Origin: Argopecten irradians
Taxonomy: Eukaryota; Mollusca; Bivalvia; Pectinida; Pectinidae
Length of the DNA: 64,000 bases
Direction of reading: 5' to 3'
Assembly (NCBI RefSeq): GCF_041381155.1
Contig: NC_091149.1
Coordinates: forward strand, 9,998,609-10,062,608
Of this stretch, positions 1,749 through 38,597 are shown in pieces (position 1 is the first letter of the stretch; every line of letters begins with the position of its first letter). The translations under genes and the position numbers were made by a program. The notes under the pieces were generated by a model. That model worked only from the letters and a program-made list of their open reading frames with translations. It searched no databases and was not told the origin of the DNA.

Positions 1749-4700
1749 CCTCGTACAACGGAGAATCTATATCATCTCTACTGGTCCGACTACTGAACAG
1801 AGACAAGACATCAGAGATGCAGATGGCGGCTGCCAAATGTCTGACGTATCTGTGTCGTGGAGGAGCTATCAGTCCTCAGGATCACATCATTATGTTAAAT
1901 GTACAGAGACTCCGATGGGGAAGGTCTATTATTTCAGTTAAAGGCCCACTACCTTTCCGGAGCAAAATTTATAGGTTTCTTAAAAACATTAATAACAATG
2001 GAAAATATATATCGATGGCCTAAGATGAGGTTACAACACCAAACATATGCAAGATTTCCTGTCTAATGTACGATAACAGTGGAGATTCATTTCGCTGTTT
2101 TGCCGTCTGGCGCAGTGATAGTCAACTACCGTGCGGCATTTAGGACGACGGCGGGAAACATAAAACGACCCGCGTTATGAAAATTAACATTTTATTTATT
2201 CTAATTAAACAGTTCCGAAGTGATGCTAAGTGTGATAGTAAACGTATAGTTAATAACTTCTGCGACTCTACAAAATTATTAATCTTGTTTTACATTCCTA
2301 TTTTAAAAATTAAAAGCCGTTTCGGAAAGGTAGTGGCCCTTTAATATTAATTACTGTTTTTGACTGTCTGTTGTTCTGATTGCAATGTAGTCCGCAAAAC
2401 CTGCCTATATTGTTACGCTTTTTTAATTTTTTTTTGCCTAATATATAGACTATATATTAGGCAAAAAAAAAAAAAATAAAAAAAAAAAAAAAAAAAAAAG
2501 CCTAATAATATAGGCAGGTTCAGTGGACTTACTGCAATGATGGAAGTAATTATCGTCTGATTTGTGAGAAAACAGGAGTAATGAAAAAAGAACTAAATTA
2601 GAAATTTTTCCCAGTAATTTAACGTCAAAAACTTATTAAGTTATGTATGTATGAAATCAAAGCCTAGCTAATGTATGATAAAATAGTATATGACATTTGG
2701 TTAAGATTGAAGCATTTTCAGACATGTATATCTTTTAGGAATTAAGCTAAAAATATTATATATGATTGAAGTATGGTCAAACATATTACATCTTATCTTA
2801 TTTAGCTATAGCTGGTACTGTGAAACAAAACTACAATACCACTCCGGAGAGGACATCACTAAGTTGGGATAACTTGTGTCCAATACCTGTTATCAATAAT
2901 TAATGACAATAAAATTATTAAAAATATGTTTAAAATCAAATTACTACCACAGCTATTAATAACTTAAGATATTTTGTAACAGTAATAAATCATTCAAAAG
3001 ACACATCAATATTAATCTGCTGCAGACAATGCCGACCTTGATTAGGATGTGTAAGAAGGATCGCACACTCGAGGAGAATGTAGAGGGAGCCGAGACGCTC
3101 GCTTTCCTTATAGAGGGCGATGCTCAACTCCAGCAGGTCGCATCTGTTTCCGATCACATCATCAAAACTCTGGCAGAATACATTCGCTACACTGACGTTC
3201 AGCAGATCAACACCAGGGCCATGCATAGAAAGGTAAATTCATATTGTCTAGAGATAAAGGGGGCTGCGATGGCCAAGTGGTTAAGATGTATTGACATATT
3301 AACACAAGCCCTCCACCTCTGGACAGCAAGTTTGAATCCCATGTGGGGCAGTTGCCAGGTACTGACCGCTGGTCAGTGGTTTTTCTCTGGGTACTCCAGC
3401 TTTCCTTCAGCAACAAACCTGGCACTACCTTAAATGACCCTGACTGTTAATATGTTAAACTAATAATACCAAACCAAACAGTCTAGAGCTATATTGTGTC
3501 TTACCTGTAATTATTGTGAGCTGCAGTGGTCTATAGTGGTAGGGCACTGGGCTAGTTGGCTAGTTATCAAAGGGTGGGTAACTGGGGGGCTTAGTGGTTG
3601 ATTATGGAGGTAATCTGTGGCCCAACGACCAAAGATTTTATGAAATCCTCAAGTTGAGACAATGACTTATGAAATATTTGAGACTACTACCTACTAGTAC
3701 CAATGTTGTATTATTTAATAAATGCTAACAATGTTAAGGGTTCTTTGAAGCCATAAAAAGTAGACTGTCAGATAAAAAGGGAAATGGAATTTTGGATATA
3801 TATGTACAATAGAACAATCTGTGTGTAGTCTGACAGTAATATTGTCTTCTTAACAGGCTCAGGACACAAACTGGAGCAATGAACTGAAACAAGCAGCTTT
3901 CAAGGCATTTGCATCACTAGGGGCCAATGATGAGGAGATCAGGAAAAAGGTATAACTAGTCATGAATATCTTGTTTAAATGTATACCAATGTGTATCTAT
4001 GCATTGTTGTATTAACTAGATAATCATGTCTCATTTTACTTGAAAATTTTGACCCACAAAAGTAACGGGCTGTACAATAATATGTATGGAGAACAGGATG
4101 GACCATACATTATAGGACTAATTCATGTACCTGATAACGCTTGTGCTGGACTAGTTTATCCAGTGGTGACGGAACGTAACTCTTTGTAATCTTCCCGCTG
4201 AAATGACGTTATCCCGCGATAACGTCATTTGACATCATTACATCACCAATAGAAACAATAGTCCCGCAAAAACGTTATTGGGTATCACATGGTACATGGA
4301 TGAGTCCCATTAGAATTAGACTTAAAGTAATTAGATCTCCACTATGTATTAAGATACACTGCAAAGTAATTAGATCTCCACTATGTATTTAGATACACTG
4401 CAATACAAGATCTAACAACTCCCAGTTCTGGTTCACCTCAGTATAACCTCTATGGTTAGCCAATCAGGGTGTCGCCTATGAAATCTTCAATTCTTTTGAA
4501 AGTATAATGACTACCAGAACATTTCAAGAAGTTTCGATTCTAGGCCAAGGGTCATGTTGAAATGACCCCGAACAGATAGTTGTTAGGGTCTGTATTGGTC
4601 AGAATCGTGTTGTAGTGGAGCAGAATTACAAAATCTAATTTGAATTAGACTGAATTATTTACTAATTGGTTAACAACAGATAATAGAGACTGAGAACCTG

Positions 4701-7700
4701 ATGGACCACATCATCGTGGGTGTGAGTAGTGAGGACATGAAGGTCAAGGGAGCGGCTATCCGGTGTCTACACAGCATGTCACGGTCAGTCCAACAGCTCC
4801 GGACAACCTTCCAGGACCACTCTGTCTGGAAACCCCTCATGTCGGTATGTTTTCTATGACAACCCCCTATATTTTATCATATTATTACATTACAAGTGTG
4901 CTAAGGCTCTCATACTTTATGAACACGTCTCCAAAGGATAAAAAAGATTTTTCTGGGTCAAAGGTCAAAGATCAATGTCACCATAATGATAGCTAAAACC
5001 AGTAATTAAATTATGTGATAAAATCAAAATTAATGTTCTTTGCAATGTTTTACAGCATTTTGTGATAATATGTGACTAAGACCTAACCTGCTAGTCTGTC
5101 TGTCTCAGCAGATAATGCAGCACTGTCCAGAACACCTGGTGGGCGTGGCCTCCTCGACCATGTGTAACCTACTGCTCGAGTTCTCACCTGGTAAAGAGGT
5201 AAATACAACATATACCTGTATATTTTACTGACCTCCTCGACCATGTGTAACCTACTGCTCGAATTCTCACCTGGTAAACAGGTAAGTACAACATATACCT
5301 GTATATTTTACTGACCTCCTCGACCATGTGTAACCTACTGCTCGAATTCTCACCTGGTAAACAGGTAAGTACAACATATACCTGTGTATCTTACTGACCC
5401 ACTCGACCATGTGTAACCTACTGTTTGAGTTCTCACCTGGTAAAGAGGTAAATACAACATATACCTGTATATCTTACTGACCTCCTTGACCATGTGTAAC
5501 CTACTGTTTGAGTTCTCACCTGGTAAAGAGGTAAATACAACATATACCTGTATATCTTACTGACCTCCTTGACCATGTGTAACCTACTGTTTGAGTTCTC
5601 ACCTGGTAAAGAGGTAAATACAACATATACCTGTATATCTTACTGACCTCCTCGACCATATGTAACCTACTGTTTGAGTTCTCACCTGGTAAAGAGGTAA
5701 ATACAACATATACCTGTATATCTTACTGACTTCCTCGACCATGTGTAACCTACTGCTCGAATTCTCACCTGGTAAACAGGTAAGTACAACATATACCTGT
5801 GTATCTTACTGACCTCCCCGACCATGTGTAACCTACTGCTCGAATTCTCACCTGGTAAAGAGGTAAGTACAACATATACCTGTGTATCTTACTGACCTTC
5901 TTGACCATGTGTAACCTACTGCTCGAGTTCTCACCTGGTAAAGAAGTAAATACAACATATACCTGTGTATCTTACTGACCTCCCCGACCATGTGTAAGCT
6001 ACTGTTTGAGTTTTCACCTGATAAAGAAGTTAATATTCCTTTATTTGTATGCATAACAGATAATACCTGACAATTTTGTTACTTGATTAATATTATAAGA
6101 CTCTTTCATATGTGGATATGAAGGATAGGGATATTCTACCCGAGGGTCACAAAATGTAGTAAAACCCAAAGCTTGACAAGGGATTTGTAACATTTTGTGA
6201 TCCCGAGGGTAGAATATCCCTATCCTTCATATCCACATATGAAAGAGTACTTTCCTTTCATACCTCGACGCTTTATTGCAATTTTACAACTATAATATAC
6301 CGCCATGTTGAAATAAATTTGAAGAAATCTACAACTGAAAGTCAATTTTCCATACATGAAAAATTCCGATATTTTTATAGTAAAACCAGTCAAGTTTTTG
6401 ATAAAAATGTTGAAATTTAATTTTACCGAGGAAATAGAAATTTTGTCGACGCCGTAATGTCATAGAAATTTTGTCAACGCCGTAATGTCACGAGGCTTTA
6501 ATGCATGGGTAGCAATACAATACAGCCTCAGGCGGCATGAGTGTATTGCCCTAGACCAGCCAGTATCACACCCGTAGGTATGAAAGAAAATAAATTAATC
6601 ATGGTTATTTTGTGAAATTATATAGGTCAAGGAAATGTAATATTCTCTTAATAATGAAATATTTTTGAAAAAAGTAAAAATGTTTTTTTTCCCAAACAAA
6701 TAAGGTAATCCAATAATTAAAGCTGTTTTCATATACAAATTTACCAATTGATATTGATGTTTCTGATATTACTAGCTCAACAATTGTTTAAAAGTATCTA
6801 ACCATACTTTTCCAGTCTATACTAGAGTCTGGAGCCATCGAAATCCTTGTTGGACTGACCACTCGAGTGGAGCCAGAGTTACGTCTAAATGGAATATGGG
6901 GTCTCATGGTATGTTTTAATAATATCGCAGATGAAACAGTTCAGAAAATTAAAATACATATTCAGATATGAATAAGTAGTAAAGTGTTTGATCCAATAAG
7001 TGCCAAATCCATATAAGCCGCCCTCCCCTGTTTTAGGCTTCAATTTTAATTGCCCAGACATAAAAAACAACCAAAACTGTACAGGTTTGCAATAATTTTG
7101 TCTTATTACGCACCTTTTCAATTTTTTTTTTCAATTTTCTGAGCGTTATTGGGTCAAATACGGTATATTATTACCAAGGTTTTGAGATACCAAAATAATG
7201 CTTGCTTAGTACAATTTACCGTTAATTAGTTGGACATTCCTGTGTATTATGACGTCATAAAATTCACTTCAAATTTGTCATCACAATCACAGAAAAGGTA
7301 GGACAAATCAAAGGTAAATCGTACTAAACCCACATTGTTTTTGAATCTCATATTTTCTGCAATGTCATTTTGAAGGATTATAAAATCTTTTGATTTGAAA
7401 AATTATTCCAAAATGACTTTAAGGAATTTTGTATTTTTGTAATAGAACATGGCGTTCCAGGCTGAACACAAGGTGAAGACACAGATTATAGAATCCGTAG
7501 GAATAGAACAACTGTTCCGGCTTCTCTCCGACCAGGATCCAAATATCCTAATGAAGACGCTAGGACTCATACGAAACCTCCTCTCAAACAAACCGGTAAC
7601 GTTAAGTTTTCATGATACTCATCATACGAATTCTCCTCTCAAACAAACAGATAACGTTAAGTTTTCATGATACTCATCATACGAATTCTCCTCTCAAACA

Positions 7701-10482
7701 AACCTTGCAATTTTGAATTTTCAATCTCAATGTTTGATACAATTATATTGATTTTTCTAAATTTCTATTTGGTTCTTCTATATCTATCTGATTTTTAGGT
7801 CAATTGGCAGGATGATTGTAACTGAACTTGGTCATAAATGTCCTAGGGTAACAAATTTTGTATACCCTGGCTTTCCTCCACCAACAAACCTGGCACATCT
7901 TTACATGACACTGGCTGTTGATAGGACGTTAAACTAATAAAAGAAAACGTTAAAGAAAAACAAAATAAGAATCCAAATCATACAGGTAAAAGCAATGCAT
8001 ATGATTCTTTACTGTAATTTGAAAATGTTTATTTATAAACTCTGAATTCGTGATTTCAGCACATAGACAGTATAATGAGTGGGTATGGAACCCAGATCAT
8101 GCAGGCCGCCGTGTTTATACTCGAGGGAGACCACACAGCTGATATCAAAGAACAGGTAAAAACAAAAACATTTAAATTGCAATAATGACATCTTGGTCGA
8201 ACATAATTTGGTTTTAATAGATATGTGTTAGTTTTAGAATGCCATGGCTTTTATTATTCATGGCAGGAGCATATTGATAATACAAATTTTGTTTATTATA
8301 CTGTATTAATGAACTTATTTTAGCAGTACAGTAAAACACAGTTATAACAAACCTCTGAGGACCACAAAAATCCCTCTATTACTAGCATAGCTCGTTATAC
8401 CCATAGATATAGGAATAGAGAACAGAGAGAACAGAGAAATTACTACGCTATAATAATCATTTCTTTGTAAGCATATCATATTTGTTTTAAATGTGTTTTA
8501 CTGTAGTTTGATTTAAGCGCTTTTTGCACTGTATATAAAATGCTAATTCATGTATAGCACTACATTATGTAAAAGAGGGTGTTTCTGGTATTAAAACGCT
8601 CAATTGTGCTGATTTATATCCTCACTCATAAATCATCCTGCACTAAAATAAGTATATTACAGTTTGAAAATGCCCGAGTTTCCTCTTAGCATATCACTAA
8701 GATATTATATAATATTTATATTCCTCTGACAACAAGACTTTAATTAGTGTACCGGATAATAGTTTTACTGATCATTTATATTTTGTCCAGACCCTGTGCA
8801 TTCTAACAAATGTTGCCGATGGTGACCAGGCGAGGGACTACATCATCGGGAATGAGGACGTCCTTAAAAAATTAACAACCTATATGGTAAACACTTATTT
8901 TTTATATACCTAAGTTAATCAGGTGGTACAGTCATGCTGGTCAGTGGCCAATTCTCGCCAAATACCAATTATCACCATCACTTCTGGATCACGAGTTCGA
9001 ATCTGACTTGGGGCAGTTGCCTGGTACTGACTGTTGGTTGGTGGTTTTTTCTGCAGGTACTCAGGCTTTCCTCCACCAACAAACCTGCACGTTTTTACTT
9101 GACCCTGACTGTTGATAGGACATTAACCTAATAAACCCAAACCAATATTCACTCTTATCTACTTGATCATGAATATTGATTGAAATGGATTTTGTATCAG
9201 CCATTTCAGAACCCAGAAACTTGTTTCTTATTTCCAGGTCCATACCAATGTTAAACTTCAAATAGCGGCCACGACCTGTATATCCAATCTAGTGTGGAAT
9301 GAAGAGGAAGGTAAGCTTTGTATTTCTTGTGTTCATTCATTTTACTCAGCACATGACCAAAGTAGTTACTTTATAATTTTTTTTTGCTTGTAAAATACAG
9401 CTTTAGATTGAGTTTTTGAGTTTTGACTTTTTAAACCTAAAGGAAAAAAAAAAACATGTAAAGAGGATAAAAATGTGATGTAATTTTGTACTAATTATGA
9501 AAACAATTATTTATTTTATTGGTTTTTTTTTTTTCTTAATAAATAAATTATGTTAAAGAGGTCTAACTGTTCCTAACAATAAATGAAACATCTGAGTTTG
9601 TTTATTTTGCAAAATTTTTTTTTTTTTTTTGCATTAGTCATTGCCATTCTCCGAATATTCTATTTTGATAAGTAAATCGTTGAGTGTGCTAAATTGAAAT
9701 TATGAAGGGGAGATAATTCCAAAAGGAAGATAAGATTTTCAAAGGGTTCTGTCAGGACAATTAACTTTTGAGAGAAATATCAAAGATTCCCAGGAAATAT
9801 GCTTTTTATTATATTCATTTGGCCATTCATGATGATAATAGAAAATGTTTTTGTGGAAAAATTATGTAAAATAAAAATGTTAATGCTACTTTCGTAACAT
9901 TTAGTTTTTTTCATTTGTAACGATTTTATTCTATTCCCATTGTAGGTGCCTACAAACGACAGCAGAAGCTTAAAGATTTAGGCGTTTTAAAACTTTTACA
10001 ACAATTATTGAATACAACAGATGCAACCCTTTTTGAAAAGTATGTATTCACTGAACTTAATACTACACTGTATGTTTGAATAACATGTATATTTATTAGT
10101 GGTGTCAAAACATATCATTTTAGCCATATTCATTGTAAATTTATCAGAATCAAACAAATAGTCTATGTTGTTATTATAATAAATATGCTATAGGTGGTTA
10201 TTTTCACAGAGATGATATTTTTGTGGGAGATCCTTCAATAAAGGGAGGTGGTTATTTTCACAGAGATGATATTTTTGTGGGAGATCCTTCAATAAAGGTT
10301 AACCATGGAAACGTAGCGTAATGGAGGAAGATTTGGTTGCCAACGTATCAGCTGTAGGGGGTTATTTGTGTGGCTTACAGTTTTAGTTCTTTTATCAATT
10401 TACACTTTCTGATATTATAATAATACTGTATACTCTTTTGTTCTGTTTCAGAGTTAAAACGACGTTACATCAGTTCACATGA
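1749..10482 (+). CDS. ARMC8: ARMC8, 3' part (12 coding exons to the stop)
   Basis: Armadillo-repeat protein 8 is a scaffold subunit of the CTLH/GID E3 ubiquitin ligase. Coding exons: 1749-1900, 3026-3232, 3857-3949, 4680-4844, 5112-5198, 6816-6908, 7446-7595, 8060-8155, 8791-8886, 9238-9310, 9946-10039, 10452-10482 (TGA at 10480). All have GT-AG borders and the phases join without a break, giving about 445 residues of helical armadillo repeats. Stretches such as [58 protein letters not shown] and [11 protein letters not shown] align with vertebrate ARMC8 almost without gaps. The first exon enters needing one base from an upstream exon, so the model is open at its 5' end. The N-terminal exons are not upstream here; they lie on the other strand at 33016-35379. 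The exons at 5112 and 7446 have tandem copies of their 3' ends in the following introns. Confidence 0.93.
1938..2344. mobile_element. MITE family D, TTAA-bounded, copy 1
   Basis: A 407 bp element with terminal inverted repeats (TTAAAGGCCCACTACCTTTC at the left, its complement at the right ending in TTTAA). It matches the copy at 14713-15118 over its full length. The TTAA ends suggest a piggyBac-type non-autonomous element. It lies only 37 bp after the end of the ARMC8 exon at 1749-1900. No coding potential. Confidence 0.8.
2388..2532. mobile_element. MITE family E, small foldback with poly(A/T) core, copy 1
   Basis: Terminal inverted repeats of the type TAGTCCGCAAAACCTGCC ... GGCAGGTTCAGTGGACTTA flank an AT-only core that also contains an internal palindrome. 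A second copy is at 55998-56119. Intronic in ARMC8. Confidence 0.7.
3258..3475 (+). mobile_element. tRNA-derived SINE
   Basis: A tRNA-like head with an A-box-like GATGGCCAAGTGGTTAAGA and a B-box-like AGTTTGAATCCC is followed by the conserved body with TTTTCTCTGGGTACTCCAG and a 3' end reading GACCCTGACTGTTAATATG. Related pieces are at 60-165 (reverse), 7850-7950, 8922-9145 and 11430-11560. Intronic in ARMC8, 25 bp after the donor of the exon ending at 3232. Confidence 0.75.
5150..6045 (+). repeat. 83-bp minisatellite that copies an ARMC8 exon end and its splice donor, 11 units
   Basis: The string CCATGTGTAA (with small changes) recurs at 5158, 5241, 5324, 5407, 5490, 5573, 5656, 5739, 5822, 5905 and 5988, an exact 83 bp period. 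The first unit is the real 3' end of the ARMC8 exon 5112-5198. Most later units keep the coding end plus a GT donor. Units at 5241, 5324 and 5739 have CAG|GTAAGT, closer to the consensus donor than the real GAG|GTAAAT. Reading past the real donor meets an in-frame TGA after ten codons. No unit carries an obvious acceptor. Confidence 0.95.
6096..6590. mobile_element. Foldback element family F, copy 1
   Basis: A long hairpin (about 6099-6155 pairing with 6198-6250; arm includes CATATGTGGATATGAAGGAT) is followed by a further inverted segment ending near GGTATGAAAG. A close relative lies at 21340-21720. No coding capacity. In the ARMC8 intron after the 83-bp array. Confidence 0.75.
6985..7168. 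mobile_element. MITE family B (GACCCAATAAGCGCC ends), copy in ARMC8 intron
   Basis: Short element whose right end reads TATTGGGTCAAATACGGTA and left end is the complement. It contains a conserved GCTTCAATTTTAATTGCC segment. Family members with the same ends and core occur at 10768-10953, 12500-12673, 17238-17435, 18427-19043 (interrupted), 27395-27573 and 31058-31258. Confidence 0.7.
7571..7711 (+). repeat. 55-bp repeat copying the end of an ARMC8 exon, about 2.6 units
   Basis: The motif ACGAA followed by CTCCTCTCAAACAAAC occurs at 7571 (inside the exon 7446-7595), 7626 and 7681, spaced exactly 55 bp. The real donor is CCG|GTAACG. In the second unit the GT has become AT, and the third ends before the donor, so the copies look unable to splice. 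Confidence 0.85.
8922..9145 (+). mobile_element. tRNA-derived SINE, second copy in ARMC8
   Basis: B-box-like GAGTTCGAATCTGACTT, then GGGGCAGTTGCCTGGTACTG and a 3' end with GACCCTGACTGTTGATAGG and TTAACCTAATAAACCC. Same family as 3258-3475. It lies 35 bp after the exon 8791-8886. Confidence 0.7.
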
Positions 10483-14335: not shown

Positions 14336-14485
14336 AAAACTGGAGTGCCTGGGGAAAACCCCCATGTTTGTGCAGGTGACTCCTGACATTTTCACATCCT
14401 TGCCAGGAATCAAACCCCAGTCGGCTAGGTGAAAGGCATTAGTAGCTTATAACCACTTCACCACTCGACCACCCCTCTAGCTATA
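14336..14485 (-). mobile_element. tRNA-derived SINE, reverse
   Basis: On the minus strand the segment reads GGTCGAGTGGTGAAGTGG (A-box-like), GGGGTTTGATTCCTGG (B-box-like), then GGGTTTTCCCCAGGCACTCC, a typical SINE body. It lacks a credible tRNA fold. Confidence 0.7.
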
Positions 14486-14547
14486 GGTTAATTAGCTACC
14501 TTCTGCTGTGGTATCGGTACACTGAATTCATTATACACTCACTATGT

Positions 14548-16292: not shown

Positions 16293-17134
16293 CTAAATCA
16301 TGGTCTCCGTCACAGAATAATCATCAAATCCAAGGTTAGTGTATCTATAACCATCCTGGTTGTGGTCGCCATGGTTACCAGGCAGATGCTTATAGTTACC
16401 AGTTGGTTGTCTGGGAGAGTTTTGTACTAAATTTTCAGTACTGACTCCAGGTTGTCTGTGATAGTTACTCGACAGTTTCTCATAGCTGACCGGCTGTGAA
16501 TTTCCATCGTACCCCCGAGGTGTACGACTAACATTTGTCGCGTCTTCATAAGGGTTTTCATGGTAGTAATACGAATGACGCCCAGAATCTCTTGGAGTAC
16601 TTTCGTAGTCCGTATCAGACGACCGATGGCTTATTGGTACGAAATGCTGGCCATCGTCGCCAGTCGGCAGTGGATTAGTAACATGGACACTACCCGTGTC
16701 ATTGATACGTAGAGCAGTTGGTTTGAGAGTCACGGACAGTTCGTTTGGATAACCACCAGCACGCATATCATTGTCTGAGGTATATCTATTGTAATTTCTC
16801 CAGTTTTCATGGTCTGATCTAAATCCCCTGGACGGCAGAGGTAAAGTACTAGCTTTATTATCGTAACTTTCAGTACCAGGATATCCGTTGACAGCTGGCT
16901 TTCGTACACTGTACGGTAGAGTATACACTCCTCGCTGTAGTTCGGCGTTGGACGGATACTTCGGTGACTGTGGCGACAGCTGTGTACTGTTATGAGAGGA
17001 CCTATCACGGCGCTTGTCGGACAGATTGTCTATGGTCAAGGGTATCCGCTGTGGCTGACCGTCGTATCCTCTCGGCTTCCACCCCTGTGGTAGTGTGCTG
17101 ACCTTATGGTGGTCAGAGTATAGAGGCTGGCTAC
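16293..17134 (-). CDS. ADAM17: ADAM17 last coding exon: long Tyr/Ser/Pro-rich cytoplasmic tail
   Basis: This exon alone gives 279 residues; with the two exons before it the cytoplasmic part is about 360 residues, against about 130 in human ADAM17. It is rich in Tyr, Ser, Pro, Asn and His and looks disordered. PRGYDG occurs twice. The protein ends in ETMI, which fits a class I PDZ ligand (S/T-x-hydrophobic), parallel to the ETEC end of human ADAM17. The acceptor at 17135-17136 gives GGT across the junction in phase. Confidence 0.85.
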
Positions 17135-23100: not shown

Positions 23101-26100
23101 CTTTCTTTTGTGTGCGACAATAACCTTTGAAAATTTTGTGACCAAAATTAATTCATGAAAATTTATCTCTACGATTGATTATCTACAATTTTTATATTGG
23201 TGGGAATTTAAAACTCTGAGCCTGGAGTAGTGAGTACACATTTGTCTGTAACAGTTGTCACATTTGTCCAGGTCGTTGTCATGAGTTACACATTTGTCTG
23301 TAACCATTGTCAGCCTCGTACCGAGGTAGTCTTGTGGACTTACCTACAATCTGAGCCCGGAGTGAGTACACATTTGTGTACAACAGTTGTCAGGCCTTGT
23401 ACCCAAGTCTGAGGACTTACCTACAATCTGAGCCTGGAGTGAGTACACATTTGTCTTTACAACAGTTGTCAGGCCTCGTACTGAGTCTGAGGACTTACCT
23501 ACAATCTGAGCCTGGAATGAGTACACATTTGTCTGTACAACAGTTGTCAGGCTAGTACCAGAGTCTGAGGACTTACCTAAAATCTGAGCCTGGAGTGAGT
23601 ACACATTTGTCTGTACAACAGTTGTCAGTCCTTGTACCGATTCTGTGGACTTACCTACAATCTGAGTCTGGAGTGAGTATACATTTGTTTGTACAACAGT
23701 TGTCATGGCCTCGTACCGAGTCTGAGGACTTACCTACAATCTGAGCCTGGAGTGAGTACACCTTTGTCTGTACAACAGTTGTCAGGCCTCGTACCTGAGT
23801 CTGAGGACTTACCTACAATCTGAGCCTGGAGTGAGTACACCTTTGTCTGTACAACAGTTGTCAGGCCTCGTACCGAGTCTGAGGACTTACCTACAATCTG
23901 AGCCTGGAGTGAGTACACATTTGTCTGTACAACAGTTGTCAGGCCTCGTACTGAGTCTGAGGACTTACCTACAATCTGAGCCTGGAGTGAGTACACATTT
24001 GTCTGTACAACAGTTGTCAGGCCTCGTACCCGAGTCTGAGGACTTACCTACAATCTGAGCCTGGAGTGAGTACACATTTGTCTGTACAACAGTTGTCATG
24101 GCCTCGTACCCGAGTCTGAGGACTTACCTACAATATGAGCCCGGAGTGAGTACACATTTGTCTGTACAACAGTTGTCAGGCCTCGTACCCGAGTCTGAGG
24201 ACTTACCTACAATCTGAGTCTGGAGTGAGTACACATTTGTCTGTACAACAGTTGTCAGGCCTCGTACTGAGTCTGTGGACTTACCTACAATCTGAGCCTG
24301 GAGTGAGTACACATTTGTCTGTACAACAGTTGTCAGGCCTTGTACCCGAGTCTGAGGACTTACCTACAATTTGAGTCTGGAGTGAGTACACATTTGTCTG
24401 TACAACAGTTGTCAGGCCTCGTACTGAGTCTGTGGACTTACCTACAATCTGAGCTTGGAGTGAGTACACATTTGTCCGTACAACAGTTGTCAGGCCTCGT
24501 ACCCGAGTCACACTCTTCGCCGCTGTCTATTCGACCGTTACCACAATAAGCAAAGTAAGGATTCTTCTCTGTGGACACAAAAAGATAAATCAATCGTTAT
24601 GGTTTTGTTTATTTATTGTTTGATGTCCTAACACCCTTTTAAAACAACATTCATTTATTAATTTGTATTTGCTTGTTTTTTAACATAATCCAGAGCACCA
24701 AGAGAAAAACCAAAGACAAACAACCAGTTACTGATGATTTTTATATAGCTGGTATCAAACTCTTGACAAAATAAAGTCTGGCCTTGAACTCTTGATAAGA
24801 GAGGTGGAGGTATTGTATCAAAACAACCTCAGAACATGTTCACCATTTGTCCCGACACAGACCCACAGGTGTAGGACTAGTGGTAATATGACTTCATGAA
24901 GGCAAGGCCTTAAAGGGCGCAGCCAGATGTTTGAATTTGAATCATGCACGGCACAGGAAGAGCGAAGCTCTACTTGTTTATTTTATTTTCTATTTCATGT
25001 AGAAAAACAAAAATTTAGAAATAAAAGGACCCAATTTAAACTACAGAAGTATATGATGTAATAATTGTCTAGCATAAACCAAAGATTTCTCTGTGTACAT
25101 GCAAGGCCTGGAGTGCCGCGTATGCGAATCCTATGATTTCGCGCCATTTGTTGACGTTATGTGACGTCATGATTCCTTGTGCTCATCTTCGTCTTGGTGG
25201 ATATTTTGACTGCATTCTATAGCTTCTAATTTTCAAAGTGTTATTATCATTATTTACAAAAAATAAAAAAAAATGTTAATTACCCCTGTTATGCATTTGC
25301 ATTAGTTAATTATATATTTACTGGGGAGAGCAGTACCGGAACAACGCACAACCTCCTCATATGTATGAAAAAATGGCGGCAGCAAACCAAAGCTGTGAGT
25401 GTGTAGGATTGAAATTTTGAAGATTGTGTTTTTTCTTATATTTTCGTGTACGTGTTACCTTAGAAGTGTTTCGCACTTTAATGTTATTACTAAAATAGGG
25501 TGATAGAATACTCTAAACCAATTTTCTTTCGAAGCTACTAAATATCACGATTTCTGATTCAAAAGATTTTTGCAAAGTTGAGATCTATGTATTTGAAATT
25601 GAATTGTGATTGTGCAAGAATGGTCTAAGATCTTATTTCGTGGATTTACCTTGATTGCGAAATTAGCAAAAATAAATCGCATGGCATGCAAAATGAAGTT
25701 GATTTACAGTATTTGGTTGTTACCTTTAAAACAATCCCTCCCCTTCACTTCCAGTACTTTGTACACTGACCTCCTACTACAGGGAGAAAATATCTACAAA
25801 CAGACACATTCTAATGTGAAAATAACATAATTGTAAACTATTCAAAATATTGTAATCAAATTATTAATGAAGCCTTCAAAATTATCAGAGGATTTTAACT
25901 AGAAATTCAAAGTATGTAAATCTATTATCTAGTAGTAGTAGAAATATTTTGTGTATGAAAAAAATGGTTAACTTGACTGTAATGTAAGAGTACCCAAATT
26001 GGATCATACAATCAGGCAAGTTTCTGAATTTTTATTACAAAAACTTTTTTTTCTAAGCTGAATTTTTTTCTAACAAATTACTAGCTTACACACAGTTTTG

Positions 26101-29100
26101 TTGTAAAAAGTGCTTTGTTTTGGGTACTGTCGCCTTACATACACAATGTATAGTGTTTGTATACATACAACATTGTTGGAATAGAACCCTTCCTGTGATG
26201 TAGGGTACATGATGTAGAAGTCTTTACACTCGGAGCTGTCTGCATTGTCATGACCACTTCCCCAGTTATGGCCTACAAAGAAAGGTTTTATTATTAATCA
26301 TTGAATGTCAAGTGAATGTAAAATGTCAGTAACATTATCATTCCAAAAAATTTATCTGCCAAAGATTTATCACAGAGTTATCTCCACTTGTATGTTATCA
26401 TAGAGTTATCTCCTCCTGTTTGTTTATCACAGAGTTATCTCCTCCTGTTTGTTTATCACAGAGTTATCTCCTCCTGTTTGTTTATCACAGAGTTATCTCC
26501 TCCTGTTTGTTTATCACAGAGTTATCTCCTCCGAGTTTATCTGCTCTTGTTCAAATGCTAAAAATATGAAAACCATGTTTGCTTTCATATCGAATTCTTT
26601 TGCAAATTCATTTATGGCTTACTTTGTTGAATAAGTTTATTGGGTCAAATATGGTAATTGACTTATAATTATTCTGTCATATTAGTACATATTAGTATTA
26701 ATATTTATGACTACATGTAGTGTGTACATATTGTCTACTTACCAAATTCTGTGTTTCCAATATGTTGATGTCAAATGGGAATATAAAAGAGAAAACAAAA
26801 AGAAAAGATTAATTTCTTTCTTCAGTCTGTTCATTGACATAGAAGAGTGAAACAAATGCCATAAACAACAAATTATTGCTTGACCTGTTTCTTACACATA
26901 TATATATATGTAAGAACAATGGATGTTAAACAGTCATTTAGTAAATATAAATAAATGTAAAATTGTGTGGTAAAATATCAAAAGAAATTAATAACACTTA
27001 TTTGCCCTTTCAACCACAAAAATAAGAATGTTATTACAGTCAATACAAAGAAATACCATGAGCTGTGGTGATTGTGGACTGTAGAGTTAATACAGTATTC
27101 CCCGCCCGATTCCTCACCGACGTCAAACCTGTGTTACCAGCAATCTTCAGACCTTTAAATCAAAAGATATCTGTTATCATTGTACTGTTAATAATGTAAT
27201 TTTCGCAGGTCTTTATCACAATTTGGACTCAATTTGAGAAAATTTTAAATTTTTCAAGAATAAGAGAATCAAAATTTTTTTCCACCATAATAATGATCCA
27301 CGGAATCAATAAAATAGCCTGCAGCTCTTTCACCTCTTTATGTACCAATTTGAACATATCAATTTATAACAGAACAAAAACGCAGCTATAATATCGTATC
27401 TGACCCAATAAGCGCCCAGGGCATTTAAAAAATTGAAAAGCGCTAATAAGACAAAATCATTTCAAATCTATACAGTTTTTGGTCTTTATTTATGCCTTGG
27501 CAATTGAAATCAAGGCCTCAAAAATGGGGAAGGGCGCCTATAGGGACATGGGTGATTATTGAGTTGAATACGGTAGTTAAATTGTTATATTTCTCATAGA
27601 TGTTTTATGATTTCAAGATAGTGCTAGATACCTGCATATACATGTAGCATGTCATATTTTAGCCCTAAGGCTATATACTCTGACCCTGACGCCAGACTTA
27701 GACATTATGACAGATTGATGTCTGGTGTTGGGCCAGAGTGCACTGCTATATCAAAAGGTGGAACTCGCCAACTGGTATCAGTTCAGGTCATCTCCGATTC
27801 AGACTGACCACCAAAAAGCGCCACTTAACTTGGTATTTTCAATAAATGAATAATGTATCTACACAGGTATAGCAATCTGTCGAGATTACAGGTGACTTGC
27901 AAAATTGAAAAAATGGTGATGACAAAGAAACTGACATGATATGATGTGCATGAGTAATAAAATGGATTGCAATAAGTAAATAAATCATTCATTTATTGAA
28001 AAGACTAAGGTAAGTGAAGATTTTCAGTGGTAATATTTTAATGTAAGCAGTCTGAATTGGACATAACCTGGCCCGATATAATACAAAACTGTGTCGGCGA
28101 GTTCCACTTTGTGCTCTGGCCCTACACCAGACATCAATCTGTCATAAAGTCTAAGTCTGGTGTCAGGGCCAGAGTATCTCGGGCCTTTTATGTTTCAGGG
28201 TACAATATTTCACAATTAAAAGAGTAAAATTCAGTAGTAATGTATATTTTGAACATATCTATCATTGTAATCGGTAGAACATATTTACCGTAATCGGTAG
28301 GAGAACAAATACCCCCAAAGTCTTTACTCCGCCACGATGCTATATAGGCAAGCCCCAGGCCATCCTGGAATGCTGCATAGGTAAAGAGATGGACCAGACA
28401 GGCAGCATTCAGGAAAAACTCAGCACTAAATACCTACAACCAGGATATACACATGCAGGCAACATTCAGGAACAAGAGGCCCACCGGACCTGCGCATGCA
28501 ACATTAACATTTTATGTTTTAACCACAGTCTCTTCCCAAAAATTTTCAAATCACATTAATATGTATATATGTGTGGTAATTTTACTGAATTAACAAGAAT
28601 TAAATTGACAATTCACTCAGGCTTATTCTTTTACATAACCAAGAAGCAAAATTTAGCATAAATGTATTGGTCTACTGTAACATTTCTTAAGAAACATATA
28701 ACGTAAAACATATTCCACGACATTGTTTAGTAAATTTTAATTAATATCGTTGAAATATCAATTTGTTGATCAATAAGATTAAAAAGGTAGAATATGTAAA
28801 CTGTACCCATATCCGAGCCTAATTAAGTCATGCACGTTAAACAAATGAACTACATAACCACTGAGAAGGTGATAAAATGATTTTTAAGGCAAGACAATTC
28901 ACCTAATAAGGTAAACACACTACTGTCAGAGCGATTTGAGCAGTTCTAGAAAAAGTTGCATTACTCTACAAGCAAGGGACAGGGTTTGGCATAGTACCAC
29001 AATGTTTGAACATTTCACATACATGTCACCACCATGGGCTTTTCAGGCATATCACAGTAAAAATCGACTGATCTAATTTCCATTTGAAGTGGGGTTTTTT

Positions 29101-30766
29101 CCGATATATGTACAAATTTTAATGTTCTCTTAGACTGAATTGTCCCTTTAATGAGTAGGCTGATATTTATAATGATATTGATATAATCGTCTAATTATGA
29201 GACTTTGAGTTTCCTGAGATGCCAGCAGCTTAGACTTATAGAAAATCTCCTCTATTTCCAATAGCCAAAATAGACCTCAAATGCCAATACGAGCCATAAT
29301 CGAAGAGAGAGACAACATTTATTTCTAAATTAAATTTTAAAAAAGAAATCCCAACCATCCAGCCCAAAGTGGTGGGGGGTAGGTATTTGAAGTGTCAAAT
29401 CAAAATTTTTTATATAATATTGAATAGTTGATCCCTTCCCTCTAAGGAAGATTCTGACAAATGTTGCTTGAAACCCACTTAATAATTTTTGACAAGAAGG
29501 CTTTTAGGGAACAGCTGACAGACAACTAACCAAGTACAGCCATAAGGACGAAGTGATTCAACTATTTGCCAAAATAAATCCTAATCATGCATTAAGCGTC
29601 AAAGTAAAGGGGGGCTTCATCCAATCAAATTTTCTTTGAACATTTTGATTTCATTACAGATGTAAGTAATGTTGAGCAAAGTTGTTCAAAATGACAATTA
29701 GTATTTTATGACAAGTTGGGTTTTTAAAGAGATATAAAAGCCTAATTGATCCAAAGCAAACATACTCATGCGTCATGATTCTTGAAAGCCCATGCGTAAA
29801 AAACTGCTACAAAATTCTTAAAACAAGCAACGTAAACGTAGTTCCAGAGGGATCTTTGCGTCCACCAAAGAATGATCTGTGCCTGACAAACAAAAGAGGG
29901 ATCTTTTATCTGCTTTTCAAACTTTTAACTACATATTTACTACATATGAATTTTGAGAAGTTACTTCCTGAGATATGTATATAAACAGTAACAAAACCTC
30001 AATTGTCAAAATCCAAGATAGCGTCCTGTCGGCCATCTTGTTCACTTAATCGGTACCAAAATGCAATATGCATAAACAGGGACCTATGGGAACCTGCACA
30101 TGAAATTTGAGACAGATCCCTTCAATACTTTTGAGAAAATAGTGGTAACATGTTTCAAGTATCAAAATGTAAAGATATAGCGGCCCGTCGGCAATCTTGT
30201 TCACCGAGCAGTCCAAATATGCACAACTAGACCCTAGGGGAAACCTGCACATGCAATTTGACACAGATCCCTTCAGTACTTTCTGAGAAATAGTGGTAAC
30301 AAACTTCAATTGTCAAAATTCAAGATGGCGTCCTGTCAGCCATCTTGTTCACTGATCGGTATCAAAAAATGCAATATGCATAACCAGGGACCTAGGGGAC
30401 CCATGCACATGAAATTTGAGACGGACGGAAGGACGGACCACGGACTAAAAGCGATTTGAATAGCCCACCATCTGATGATGGTGGGCTAAAAACTTAGCAG
30501 CCATATTGAAAAGCTTTTGCAGCTAACTATAACTTCAAAACCTCAGGTACCTGTCTAGTCTGTAAACTTGTGGCAATTTGCTGGAACCTTCTGTAATTTC
30601 TCATAAAGGGTTAAATATAATAGGTCAGATAACAATCAAGGTGAGCTGAAACAGCAGCAAGCAATCTTTCAAGGAGTTTACTTACGTCGAGTGTATCCTC
30701 CATGTTTGTCTGTCTGTCTGCCTGGTTATAATGGTCACCAGCAGAAGGCTCGATGTGAATGATTAT
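16293..30766 (-). CDS. ADAM17: ADAM17 (TACE)-like sheddase, 3' part: mid-catalytic domain to stop, 16 exons
   Basis: Membrane zinc protease that sheds ectodomains such as TNF-type ligands. Exons in coding order: 30686-30766, 28289-28433, 27057-27152, 26743-26748, 26169-26272, 25724-25793, 24442-24568, 22868-22975, 22520-22573, 21161-21234, 20090-20202, 19589-19664, 19305-19393, 18256-18315, 17773-17956, 16293-17134. Phases are continuous (742 residues plus stop). Domains: end of the catalytic domain with LVHLFTYAAF, DGLGLAYIAS and zinc site HEFGHNWGSGHD; disintegrin (CGNGRIDSGEECD); membrane-proximal cysteine-rich domain (CYRCCKSG); stalk NKFWTALTSRVIDSFG; one membrane helix; tail with DGFEKE, as in vertebrate ADAM17. 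ADAM10 fits less well. Signal peptide, prodomain, furin site and the first half of the protease are absent; no exon for them was found between 30767 and 33000. The border choice at 22868/22573 is the least certain. Confidence 0.92.
17238..17435. mobile_element. MITE family B copy in ADAM17 intron
   Basis: Left part reads TGACCCAGTAAGCACTTAGG, right part GAGGCCTCAAAAGGGGGAGG with the same layout as 27395-27573. Non-coding. Confidence 0.65.
18427..19043. mobile_element. MITE family B copy split by a MITE family C insertion
   Basis: The left half of family B is at 18427-18530 (TAAGCGCCCCTCCC) and its right end at about 19010-19043 (GTCGGGTCAACTATGGTAA). Inside, 18650-18994 is a family C element with ends TTAAAGATGCTCCACCGCCG and its complement. 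Other family C copies: 56612-56971, 57452-57838, 62681-62999. Confidence 0.75.
20311..20497. mobile_element. MITE family A, copy 2
   Basis: Palindromic copy with ATTCCGTCTTTGCATATTAC at the left and AATATGCAAATACAGAAT at the right; contains TGACGTCA. In an ADAM17 intron. Confidence 0.75.
20535..20665. mobile_element. Foldback element family G
   Basis: Near-perfect hairpin with arms TATGGAGATATAACACAAAA and complement around a GAAGCGGTTT centre. A degenerate relative is at 58836-58915. Confidence 0.7.
21340..21720. mobile_element. Foldback element family F, copy 2
   Basis: Same arms as 6096-6250 (ATGTGGATATGAAGGATAGG and complement), here with a much shorter loop, and the same downstream half ending GGTATGAGAG. 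In an ADAM17 intron. Confidence 0.75.
21813..22017. mobile_element. MITE family A, copy 3
   Basis: Ends CCCGTCTTTGCATATTACAG and AAATACAGAAT; the central CRE-like site is degenerate. In an ADAM17 intron. Confidence 0.65.
23205..24520 (-). repeat. 78-79 bp minisatellite copying the ADAM17 disintegrin exon end and donor, 15 units
   Basis: The donor-side string CTACAA (complement TTGTAG) recurs at 24442 (the real exon end), 24364, 24285, 24207, 24128, 24048, 23969, 23891, 23813, 23734, 23655, 23577, 23499, 23421 and 23344, then decays towards 23205. On the minus strand each unit repeats coding for DNCCTDKCVLTPGSDC and ends TGTAG|GTAAGT, the same donor as the real exon. Reading on past the first donor gives AGG TAA, an immediate stop. 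Long frames such as those with VGKSSDS are other frames of this array, not genes. Confidence 0.95.
26392..26535. repeat. 29-bp tandem repeat, about 5 units
   Basis: CAGAGTTATCTCCTCCTGTT recurs every 29 bp (about 26400-26530), in the ADAM17 intron just 3' of the microexon. It does not touch an exon. Confidence 0.8.
26743..26748 (-). CDS. ADAM17: 6-nt microexon encoding the catalytic Glu of ADAM17
   Basis: On the minus strand the preceding exon ends CAT G and the following exon starts GC CAT AAC. Between them lies AG|AATTTG|GTAAGT. Joining all three gives CAT GAA TTT GGC CAT AAC, that is HEFGHN, the start of the zinc motif HExxHxxGxxH. Without the six bases the join is still in frame but reads H-GHNWG, losing Glu and Phe. 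The donor is a consensus GTAAGT. A pyrimidine-rich stretch lies farther upstream than usual (about 26790-26815), as often seen for microexons. Confidence 0.85.
27395..27573. mobile_element. MITE family B, well preserved copy
   Basis: CTGACCCAATAAGCGCCCAG at the left, GAGTTGAATACGGTA at the right, core ATCAAGGCCTCAAAAATGGG. About 180 bp, in an ADAM17 intron. Confidence 0.75.
27673..28186. mobile_element. Foldback transposon with about 90-bp terminal inverted repeats
   Basis: The left arm (about 27675-27780, with CAGACTTAGACATTATGACA) is the imperfect complement of the right arm (about 28095-28186, with CATAAAGTCTAAGTCTGG). Both carry GGAACTCGCC or its complement at the inner edge. About 510 bp with no reading frame. 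It lies just before the exon 28289-28433. Confidence 0.75.
28474..30493. mobile_element. Non-autonomous repeat element of about 2 kb with internal tandem units
   Basis: Opens at ACAAGAGGCCCACCGGACC and ends with CCACCATCTGATGATGGTGG. From about 30010 to 30430 a unit of roughly 150 bp containing GGCCATCTTGTTCAC and CACATGAAATTTGAGACAG repeats three times, followed by GACGGACGGAAGGACGGACC. No protein domain. It fills the ADAM17 intron between 28433 and 30686. Boundaries are approximate. Confidence 0.55.
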
Positions 30767-31379
30767 CTGTTAAATTTACAGTATAATTACTTTGAACACA
30801 GGATTGATACCAGGGAGGGGTGGGTGCGTGGGTGGGGGGTGAGGGGTACATTTAAATTATTGAAACTTACTATTAGTGGATGAACTAAGTCAATCTCTCC
30901 CAGGCTTCATTGCGGTACCCACATTCACCTCTGTCAACGGCTCATGAACCTTGGGTCACAGAATATTAACTAATAGAAACTGACAACAGGTATTAATAAA
31001 TGAATTTAGTGTGCGTCCGAATTAACTTTTTCAAGAATTATGTGATGTAGACTAAAATACCGTATTCCAGTCCCCCCATGTCTCTATAAATGCCCCTCCT
31101 CCTTTCTGAGGCCTTGATTATTCATTTTCACTTGCCTCAAATTAAATGGAAATCAAAAATATGAAAACCAATAATTTTGTGATATGATGGCCCATTAAGG
31201 GCCCTTCATTTTTTCAGTGTTTTTAAGCACCCTGGGCCCTAATTGAGTTGAATATGGGAAGAAAAATATATAAATACATCAGGTAACAGAATATGTACCA
31301 ACTTTCCATTTTGCAATAGAAGGCTATTAAATGGTTATTGTGCCAGCTCTAACAATTAAATTAAGTTAAAAGTTAAGAT

Positions 31380-33030
31380 ATATCAACACCTGAGTAAGAC
31401 AATGACACGTCCTGAGCCATACTAAGCTACAATGTAAGATAAATAATTAGAAACCTTTGAGTAAAACAAAGACAAAGTCAGAGTCATAACCAAGCTAGAA
31501 TGTAAGATAAATAATTAGAAACCTTTCAGTATAACAGTGAAACAGCCGGAGTCTAATTAACCAAGCTAGAATTTAAGATAACTTATTATAAACCAAGCTA
31601 GAATTTAAGATAACTTATTATAAACCAAGCTAGAATTTAAGATAACTTATTATAAACCAAGCTAGAATTTAAGATAACTTATTATAAACCAAGCTAGAAT
31701 TTAAGATAACTTATTATAAACCAAGCTAGAATTTAAGATAACTTATTATAAACCAAGCTAGAATTTAAGATAACTTATTATAAACCAAGCTAGAATTTAA
31801 GATAACTTATTATAAACCAAGCTAGAATTTAAGATAACTTATTATAAACCAAGCTAGAATTTAAGATAATAATTATAAACCTTTGATTATAACAGTGAAA
31901 CAGCCGGAGTCTAATTAACCAAGCTAGAATTTAAGATAATAATTATAAACCTTTGATTATAACAGTGAAACAGCCGGAGTCTAATTAACCAAGCTAGAAT
32001 TTAAGATAACTTATTATAAACCAAGCTAGAATTTAAGATAATAATTATAAACCTTTGATTATAACAGTGAAACAGCCGGAGTCTAATTAACCAAGCTAGA
32101 ATTTAAGATAATAATTATAAACCTTTCAGAAGGACAGTTTTAATGGATTTAATGGAAAATAATGGACGCAGGCTAGAAGCCTCTATGTCCATATCATAAG
32201 ACATAATATAAACTAATTATATTGTCACTGGTAAAGTTGTATACAAGTACTCAATAAAATTATTTATCAGTAATTATTATAGATATTGTCCTTCATATGG
32301 TTATCTAGCAGTATCTCAAAATCTTTAGTAGTCTCTGCATTAACGACAGACTCTGGTAGACAATTCCAGGTATCAACTACCCTAAATGTGAAAGAGTTTT
32401 TCCTTAGCTCCGTGTTGCAATGTTGTTTATACAGCTTAAATTTATGGCCTCGAGTTCTTTCGTTCGTATCATAAACAAATATGTTAGAGGTAACTCTCTC
32501 GTCAAATTTTTTGTTTACAATCTTAAAAACGTTTATTAAATCCCCTCTAATCCTGCGATGTTTAATCACTCTTCATATGACAGATCTTTAAATCCTGGTA
32601 GAAGCTTGGTAGCTCTCCGTTGTACGTTTTCTATCATCTGACAGTCTTTAAGTTTATATGGGCTCCATGCGCTGGCTGCATGTTTAAACATTGTTTCGTC
32701 CAGATATGTAAAAGATCTTCTGATAATGCCGAGGACTGAGTTTGCTTTATTTATAGAATTTTGAATATGGGTCCAAATTGGCATCTACCGTTACTCCTAT
32801 GTCTTTTTCGCTGACGATTTTTTCCAGTATGACTTCTCCAGATTGGTTCACGAGACGATATGTTCTTTTATTATTTGGCGATCCCTTAATTTGCAGTACC
32901 TTGCATTTATTCGGATGAAATTAGTGACAGTGACACAGCCGGAGTCATAACCAAGCCAGAATTTAAGATGAATTAATATAAACCGAGCTAGAATTTAAGA
33001 TGAATAACTATAAACCTTTGAGTAGAACAG
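31380..33030 (-). repeat. Composite minisatellite copying the ARMC8 exon-4 end, interrupted by a LINE
   Basis: On the minus strand the units read GACTCCGGCTGTTTCACTG then ATCAAAG|GTTTATA, a copy of the end of the ARMC8 exon 33016-33158 (coding DSGCVTVLLK plus donor). Between these lie about ten 32-bp units (ACCAAGCTAGAATTTAAGAT) from 31561 to about 31870. Array units resume at 32920-33000, after a LINE fragment (about 32128-32917), so the LINE inserted into an existing array. Since the array derives from ARMC8 exon 4, the DNA down to about 31380 is ARMC8 intron. Confidence 0.88.
32128..32917 (-). mobile_element. 5'-truncated CR1/L2-type LINE fragment (reverse-transcriptase C-terminus)
   Basis: Minus-strand frames include CKVLQIKGSP, EKDIGVTVD, NVQRRATKLLPGF and HCNTELRKNSFTFRVVDTWN, all typical of the C-terminal region of non-LTR reverse transcriptases. 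The frame is broken near 32566 and 32784. The 3' end carries the 9-mer TCCATTAAA twice, like the short tandem tails of CR1/L2 elements. Embedded in the ARMC8 exon-4 array. Confidence 0.85.
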
Positions 33031-35379
33031 TGACACAGCCAGAGTCCACTAAGTGCTGTATGTTTTCCTCTGTGCCTTTAGCCAGACTACCGAGGACTAT
33101 GGCTGCCTCTGTTCTCAAACCAACATCTGCATCATCATCAATCATCCACTGTAGGAGCCTAGAGAAAAGATATCATTGTCATTAAAAATCATTGCCATCA
33201 AAATAATAGTTTTACTATCAAAAAAATATCTTTATACTGTCAGTTTACATACTAATCTGTGTTTGAATGTTACACAGTTATCTCCCCTTGCGGGTAGGTA
33301 TTGATTGTGTCGTCATATGTTTGCCAGCGTAACATCATATGTTTCGGAAAAAGTGACGTGAATTGTGCCCACAAAATAATGACGTCACAATTGATACCTA
33401 CCCGCAAGGGAACTAACTCTGTAATATGCAAAGACGGAATAGTTTACCATCAAATTAACATTTTTGAAGTAGCTGTCTTGTAAACATCCTATATGTATAT
33501 ACTTAATTTGTATGATGTACGTGTACAGTCTTTTCAAAAATTAATTACTACTGGTAATTTAATCCTTACCACCAAAATTTTTCTATTTTTTCTTATTTCT
33601 TATACTACCTGTAAACACACTGTGTAATTATTATTTAATTTGTATAATCTACATTCTATTCAACATTTAACTCATACACTTTAGAAGGTATATACATAGA
33701 GTGAAACAGAGGACTCATCAAAATCTTTAAATCAGTGGTTTGGTTTATTGAGCCAGGATCAGTCTCACCTTGGTATAACACCTTGATTGATCACAACACA
33801 CTTTTGCTTGTTGTTTCCTATCACCCCATTCTTCAGGCATCTAGAAATAAACAACAGGACCTGTGACCATGGTAACTTGGTTACCTATATCAAATACTAA
33901 CAACTAAATACTAACTGAATAATGTCATCATTCCCATATTGTCTGTGGTAAATATGTTCAGTAAGAGATCTAGAGAAATTGTGAAATGCTTTTCATATGC
34001 ATGTAGACATTTTTCAATACATAAAATAATACTCTGACAATATTGTCCATGGATTTAGATTTAGAAACGGTACATTAGACTATTCTTCCATGTTTTTGAT
34101 TTAGTTGTTTATCCAGATTTTGAGATATTCAAGGTTTGTACTAAATCATTTTACAAATTATACCACAGATACATACACTATGGAGTTCATCCACTTCTCC
34201 TGGTTTCCACTCAGTAAACACTCCACGCAGCCAACTGTGTCATCCACCTCCTAATGTAGGAAACAAAAAGAAAAAAACAATGAACAGTAGAATTTAATTC
34301 ACATACCATGTATACCTAACAAGGTTTTGTGTATCTCTAGTGAGAGTGATGACAGAATGTAACTCCTTCTAATCTTCCTGCTGATTTGACATTAGAGCAG
34401 GATATCAACTTTTAACATCAATATAATCTATTGTAACAGGAGAGGAGAAAATGCAGAAGCCAGACCGGGATTCGAACCTGGGACCCTCTGAACACTAGCC
34501 AAATGCTACATGAGCTAGCTGGTCACATTTGATCGACCCAGTCTAATCCCGCTACACTCCTCTCTCCTTTCTCGAAGTCTTCGTCCTCTAAGACATACGA
34601 GACCCTTCCAAACAACACCACCATTGATTACTTATTTAGTTGGGCGCCAAATCTGTAACAGCTAGGAGAGGAGAAAATGCAGCGGGCATACCGCGATTCA
34701 AACCCGGGACACTATATGAACACTAGTCGAGTGCTCTACTGACTGAGTTACCTGGTCACCGATTATGGACCCAGTCCAATCCCGCTACACTATCACCAAT
34801 TTATTGAAACAATATAGGTCCTGCACAGACGTTATCAGGTATCACATACATGGTACTTTAATTTAGTCATTCTACCTCTGGTAAACATAATGTGAAATGC
34901 GCCCCTATGCAAGATTTTTTAATAACATGAGATTGTTTATATATTGCATCCAATAATGCATAGTGTATATCTATGAGTCTGATTTAGTCTGCTTTAGCCT
35001 AATGTAACACAGTTAAAAATACTATAATCAGATAATTCATAATTTCCATTGAGCATAAAAGTAACAGTCAAAGAGTACAATGCCAAAAAATACTGCTACC
35101 CAATTTACAATAAATAATTGAGATTAGGTGAGCGGAAAATACAAACAAAAACGGCACATAATCCCCAAGTGCGATGTCGATGTGGTGGCCGAACAGGTAG
35201 CAAAATATTAATGCACACTTCGTATTAACGAAATTCTATGATTCAGTAACATTCTAACAATGATAATTCCAACGCGATGCATTGTTCAGTAAGTTTTTCC
35301 TTATTAAAAAGTACGTTTAAACGGGTAACAGCGACCAGTTTAAGAAGAAACAAATGTTTACCATAGCAGTTTGAATCAT
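33016..35379 (-). CDS. ARMC8: ARMC8, 5' part (first four coding exons)
   Basis: Coding order: 35362-35379 (MIQTAM, proposed start), 34177-34250, 33769-33840, 33016-33158. The last three align without gaps to the N-terminus of vertebrate ARMC8: CLLSGNQEKWMNSIV, then CLKNGVIGNNKQK, GVIPR, and TEAAIVLGSLAKGTEENIQ. Splice phases 0, 2, 2, 1 join exactly. The next ARMC8 exon is not found downstream on this strand; ADAM17 exons follow instead, and the rest of ARMC8 is at 1749-10482 on the plus strand. The first exon is tiny and rests on its ATG, a GTAAAC donor and matching phase, so it is less certain than the others. Confidence 0.88.
33265..33440. mobile_element. MITE family A, copy 4
   Basis: Palindromic arms GGTAGGTATTGATTGTG and its complement, TGACGTCA at about 33380, right end GTAATATGCAAAGACGGAAT. 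In an ARMC8 intron. Confidence 0.75.
34435..34800 (-). mobile_element. Two tRNA-derived SINE units in tandem
   Basis: On the minus strand each unit has a tRNA-like head (TAGCTCATGTAGCA or AACTCAGTCAGTAGAGCA as A-box region; GGTTCGAATCCCGG or GGGTTTGAATCGCGG as B-box region) followed by CTGCATTTTCTCCTCTCC. The units start about 225 bp apart. Upstream of the ARMC8 exon at 34250. Confidence 0.7.
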
Positions 35380-38580: not shown

Positions 38581-38597
38581 ATTAGCCTACTTTCAGA

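Follow-up and report, generated by a model that had tools for sequence, protein, structure and literature searches.

A probable young inversion divides ARMC8 and an ADAM17-like protease gene on a reference chromosome of the bay scallop Argopecten irradians

Contig NC_091149.1 of the bay scallop (Argopecten irradians) reference genome, here called C16, carries two genes, ARMC8 and a gene for an ADAM17-like protease, each of which is divided into pieces lying on opposite strands. We analyzed a window of 64,000 nucleotides (C16:9998609-10062608) together with the 100 kb to its left, 164 kb in total, and searched the complete assembly (845758899 bases in 1508 contigs). Positions are given in window coordinates, for which the C16 position is 9998608 plus the window coordinate and negative values lie to the left of the window. 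Flipping one segment of ~36 kb back restores both reading frames. Working from the assembled sequence of one animal, we consider it probable that this segment is a young inversion produced by staggered breaks, that the sequenced scallop was heterozygous for it, and that the reference chromosome represents the broken allele.

Exons were located by tblastn using the ARMC8 proteins of Pecten maximus (P0001) and Ylistrum (P0002) and, for the protease, P0122 (the Pecten ADAM17-like protein) and P0123. The A. irradians database models for the protease are P0121 (tail, 767 amino acids) and P0241 (head, 299 amino acids), both assigned to a contig whose length, 34531595 bases, is that of C16. The gene pieces, the two breakpoints and the array next to one of them are as follows.

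33016..35379, minus strand: ARMC8 exons 1-4 (35362-35379, 34177-34250, 33769-33840, 33016-33158), residues 1-103; from tblastn, splice sites and frame
-3708 to -312 (C16:9994900-9998296), plus strand: ARMC8 exons 5-8, left of the window; from tblastn
1749..10482, plus strand: ARMC8 exons 9-20, with the stop codon ending at 10482, inside the inverted segment; from tblastn, splice sites and frame
-12494 to -5567 (C16:9986114-9993041), plus strand: protease head, exons 1-8, residues 1-283, left of the window; from tblastn
16293..30766, minus strand: protease tail, exon 9 onward (mid-catalytic domain to stop), inside the inverted segment; from tblastn with P0122 and P0123
32623..32691, minus strand: first exon of model P0121, 22 residues, retroelement-like; from tblastn with P0121
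-5295 to -5143 (C16:9993313-9993465): left breakpoint, the other copy of the inverted duplication; from blastn, MAFFT and genome search
31036..31205 (C16:10029644-10029813), minus strand: right breakpoint and one copy of the inverted duplication; from blastn, MAFFT and genome search
31391..33016, minus strand: minisatellite that expanded from the 3´ terminus and splice donor of ARMC8 exon 4, lying beyond the right breakpoint, toward ARMC8; from Tandem Repeats Finder and the sequence

For ARMC8, the split on C16 is observed directly. Exons 1-4 run from 35379 to 33016 on the minus strand and the 3´ part from 1749 to 10482 on the plus strand, all coordinates that an initial annotation of the window had given correctly. 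As it had also stated, the two pieces cover separate parts of the protein, with approximately residues 1-103 encoded by the minus-strand piece and 103-663 on the plus strand. Beyond the left edge of the window, the missing middle exons had been predicted on the plus strand, followed by the 5´ exons of the protease gene, and both sets were found there, in that order outward. Upon joining, all 20 ARMC8 exons are accounted for, GT...AG borders are present at 19 of 19 introns, and the reading frame of 1992 nucleotides is open to the stop (663 amino acids); exon 4 ends in phase 1, exon 5 supplies the two remaining bases, and the frame is open across the join. The joined pieces matched the human ARMC8 chain 7nsc_E (E 1.8e-191) and the scallop ARMC8 proteins of P. 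maximus and Ylistrum balloti; Arm repeats were detected in P0001. In its 20 exons and its 96-97% identity to the Pecten and Ylistrum proteins, the gene is like ARMC8 as known for the armadillo subunit of the CTLH/GID E3 ligase, but the copy on C16 differs in lying in two pieces on opposite strands. A whole-genome search with P0001 (22 of 22 candidates scored) gave 19 matches, 18 at the C16 locus and one on another contig, C970. Residues private to A. irradians occupy nine of 659 alignment columns, compared to 13 for Pecten and nine for Ylistrum, and the ARMC8 halves on C16 show no apparent sign of decay or acceleration. The reading of these halves as a decayed duplicate was rejected, given the intact exons, the lack of acceleration and the absence of a second copy on C16.

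The protease piece within the window begins at 30766 on the minus strand, in the middle of the catalytic domain, as had been noted, and no head exon was detected before the ARMC8 exons by tblastn. We rejected the possibility that the missing exons (protease head, ARMC8 middle) are concealed on the minus strand at 30767-33015, the interval where, according to the initial annotation, their presence would have refuted the inversion, or elsewhere within the window, as tblastn against the window and the 100 kb to its left found none in these places. The join between protease exons 8 and 9 is in phase 0, and the frame stays open across it. The window tail shares 98% identity with a database entry titled "LOW QUALITY PROTEIN: ADAM 17-like protease [Argopecten irradians]", and the head-only model P0241 does not stop at the donor of exon 8 but reads on into the intron. 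In a whole-genome search with P0122 (45 of 60 candidates scored), 22 of the 27 matches listed were at this locus, with the other five on paralogues (C3, C11, and C16 at 31.25 Mb).

The protease had been called ADAM17, a name that holds for an ADAM17-like M12B protease and fails for a canonical ADAM17. Like ADAM17 (TACE), the protein has propeptide and M12B protease domains (PF01562 in P0241; the reprolysin domains PF13574 and PF13688, with the zinc motif HEFGHNWGSGH, of the form HExxHxxGxxH, in P0121), and its closest solved relatives are ADAM17 chains. Unlike ADAM17, P0121 and P0122 are without a detectable ADAM17_MPD domain (PF16698) at E 0.01, whereas this domain is present in the Pecten paralogue P0221 (E 4.2e-11). 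The protease is an ADAM17-like paralogue: it clusters with fast paralogues of oysters and scallops and is separate from the Pecten gene bearing ADAM17_MPD. Residues private to the A. irradians protein number 90, while Pecten has 49 and Ylistrum 113; with these and one frameshift, the case regarding a decayed duplicate is less clear than for ARMC8. Separately, we noted an intronless, stop-free ADAM17-like frame of 820 codons at C3:36915639-36917561 (L038), 32% identical to P0122 and possibly a retrocopy.

Both junctions on C16 are marked by a segment of ~150 bp in inverted orientation, which can be read directly from the assembly. Blastn aligned -5295..-5143 to 31190..31036 with 97.4% identity over 155 columns, and in the MAFFT alignment a core of ~140 bp contains no mismatch and one 1-bp gap in a short A run. 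The right breakpoint had been expected between 30767 and ~31380, and the junction, at ~31036-31205, falls within that interval. The suggestion that the segment had been joined at a minisatellite did not survive: the junction lies at 31036-31205, the array begins at 31391, and the minisatellite is on the ARMC8 side. In the genome search with the breakpoint segment (40 of 77 candidates scored), the partner copy spans the whole segment at 97%, while the other 38 scored matches are 75-93% identical over 40-108 positions. The breakpoint pair is far closer than any other scored copies; the segment is therefore a member of a dispersed family, yet the two breakpoint copies share a recent origin. No gap letters (N) occur in the 164 kb, including both joins on C16.

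C970, an unplaced contig of 22364 bp found through the stray ARMC8 match, provides a view of ARMC8 without the inversion. ARMC8 exons 9, 8, 7, 6, 5, 4, 3 and 2 are seen directly in unbroken order on one strand of this contig; exon 1 (18 nucleotides) and exon 10 of ARMC8 were not found on it, nor was any of the four protease exons tested. Both ARMC8 arrangements, that of C16 and that of C970, are thus present in one assembly. Across ARMC8 intron 4, C970 passes from window -3746, beside exon 5, to 31199 within ~90 bases and without the duplicated segment, and overall the collinear match extends from the side of window -3561 into 31199 and on to 35211. A search for the segment in C970, an error-rich contig, found no copy: the best scores, 75 and 68, stayed below the highest of 20 shuffles, 81. 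From this we infer that the segment derives from the protease intron and that the ARMC8 intron was cut nearly cleanly. The segment may be single in the un-inverted arrangement: C970 lacks it on the ARMC8 side, and the protease side was seen only inverted.

We also weighed whether, in place of staggered breaks, a dispersed repeat with two older copies in inverted orientation had recombined to give the inversion. Partial copies of the duplicated segment are indeed found genome-wide, consistent with a repeat family, but with 40 of 77 candidates scored, none of the other copies approaches the breakpoint pair, each being either shorter or much more divergent, and the un-inverted ARMC8 intron on C970, error-rich as that contig is, has no copy of the segment, which argues against an old repeat pair. 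We regard this origin as having only the slimmest of chances.

In the inversion that we favor, the segment from -5142 to 31035 (C16:9993466-10029643), ~36 kb, would have been turned around, cutting intron 8 of the ADAM17-like gene at one breakpoint and ARMC8 intron 4 at the other. Staggered breaks would have left ~150 bp of the protease intron single-stranded, and fill-in would then have placed an inverted copy at each new join. The ARMC8 intron would have been cut almost cleanly, perhaps with the loss of some 25-30 bp. The inverted allele would have been assembled into the chromosome, with a noisy piece of the un-inverted allele left as C970. The flip of one segment with breakpoints in an intron of each gene had been proposed in the initial annotation, and introns 4 and 8 are those for which the frames are restored. 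Of the three possibilities it had left side by side, a true inversion, a haplotype difference or an assembly segment joined backwards, C970 favors an inversion that differs between haplotypes, with the reversed segment staying as a rival. Given two arrangements in one assembly, precise joins, and a duplication only at the inverted arrangement, a heterozygous inversion appears to be the best explanation, and it looks young, since the core of the duplication has no substitutions and ARMC8 shows no decay. The ancestral order is deduced from the intact proteins in Pecten and Ylistrum, where ARMC8 and the ADAM17-like gene are on contigs of equal size (32483354 bases in Pecten, 1200850 bases in Ylistrum) and therefore are probably linked.

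Similar breakpoints have been documented elsewhere. A study of polymorphic inversions in Drosophila subobscura treats inverted duplications that occur only in the inverted arrangement as a mark of staggered breaks, and breakpoints there can hit genes (PMC5080602). The scallop case is alike in its inverted duplications; it differs in that the Drosophila cases are large arrangements supported by population data, whereas here a segment of ~36 kb in one assembly splits two genes within introns. Heterozygous inversions of megabase size are reported between haplotypes of a pearl oyster, likewise a bivalve with two structurally differing haplotypes (PMC9646362). There the assembly is phased; in the scallop the other haplotype is represented only by a noisy leftover contig.

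The main rival is that C16 is misassembled, with a unitig or contig of ~36 kb placed backwards, the duplication being an unmerged overlap in the protease intron and C970 giving the true order. We judge this unlikely, though a serious contender. It would account for the un-inverted ARMC8 on C970 and for the intact and constrained appearance of both genes after re-joining, and a duplication core free of substitutions, with only a 1-bp gap in a short A run, would equally be expected if two contigs overlapped without being merged. Against this, neither join has gap letters, and when C970 is used as the reference, the points at which the two joins enter the ARMC8 intron lie no more than a few tens of bases apart, for which a flipped contig gives no reason. 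Overlaps between neighboring contigs in long-read assemblies are kilobases long rather than 150 bp, which also counts against misassembly.

Like the overlap expected of unmerged contigs, several further observations weigh against the heterozygous inversion. C970 is error-rich, with mismatches of 2.3-9.4% in six stretches and far more extra bases than missing ones, as in unpolished long reads. Just right of the junction the contig matches at only 61% over 1039 columns, and beyond 11250 it is not collinear with the window, its last bases scoring no higher than shuffles against window 35150-35450. An un-inverted protease allele was not found by genome search, in which 45 of 60 protease candidates and 40 of 77 segment candidates were scored. 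In addition, the protease tail has a 1-nt frameshift at 22555 (window 22519-22584), where an extra base puts the halves of an exon in different frames; P0121, labeled low quality, reads across it. The extra base may be genuine damage to the gene or a base miscalled in the assembly, and in the latter case the local sequence is imperfect.

C970 contains two other structural differences from C16. The ~11 kb at C970:11250-22296 (L035, L036) follow ARMC8 intron 1 sequence, are rich in short repeats and have inverted ends of ~1 kb that are 86% alike; this region resembles an insertion of a large element into the other haplotype. A further element, which contains an array of 157-bp units, appears to be present on one contig and absent from the other at three places: C970 lacks it at window 206-1605 (element ~300-1605) and at the left join (-5100..-3780), and carries a copy at 4433-5137, near window -1900, where C16 has none. 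This element resembles the mobile elements with tandem arrays known from bivalves.

On the inverted chromosome, cis-splicing could yield only out-of-frame fusions; the two simplest stop after 112 and 289 residues, and in-frame fusion genes were rejected on these grounds. With no continuous ARMC8 and such fusions, we infer that both ARMC8 and protease functions are likely lost on the inverted allele. A fixed or common inversion, with C970 as rare or foreign DNA and the two genes lost, replaced by paralogues or trans-spliced, would fit the split A. irradians database models (P0241, the head running into the intron, and P0121, the tail with a retroelement-like first exon) and the other ADAM17-like genes in the genome. 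However, ARMC8 is deeply conserved, without a second copy and with undecayed exons, and the identical duplication core argues for a recent event, such that we find fixation very improbable.

We lean somewhat toward an inversion that segregates in wild or farmed bay scallops as a heterozygous, recessive lethal allele, removing a single-copy ubiquitin-ligase subunit and a protease at once. A review gives 8-38 deleterious recessive mutations per genome for oysters (PMC6058216), and by that account it would be unsurprising to meet a broken allele in the heterozygous state. Were the allele confirmed, it would be a mapped, base-resolved piece of the large bivalve genetic load, sitting in the reference chromosome; the bay scallop reference would carry a double loss-of-function allele, and models P0241 and P0121 would be halves of one gene. 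It would also offer a locus at which polymerase chain reaction could address whether structural variants form the recessive-lethal load inferred in bivalves (PMC6058216). Should the arrangement instead prove to be a misassembly, a specific error would have been located in a reference on which breeding and annotation draw.

Several minisatellites in the region have units made of an exon 3´ end plus donor. They are found at window 5149-6035, 7567-7704, 23282-24509 and 31391-33016, the last being broken by a retroelement-like piece at ~32150-32930, and, left of the window, at -7491..-7189, -6561..-6485 and -1216..-916, the set spanning ARMC8 and the protease gene. Arrays touch seven of 42 donors and none of 42 acceptors, and random placement of the 22 arrays averages 6.35 donors (P 0.45). 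The donor hits thus match random placement, with no excess, and the donor/acceptor asymmetry alone stands out.

ARMC8 exons 1-4 kept their original place beside DBR1. We take an open reading frame at 38586..38864 on the plus strand, divergent from ARMC8 exon 1, to be the probable first coding exon of DBR1. Human ARMC8 and DBR1 are divergent neighbors, and the same orientation is seen at window 38586-40179. Arrays at 37927-38580 and 39993-40179 flank the DBR1-like start.

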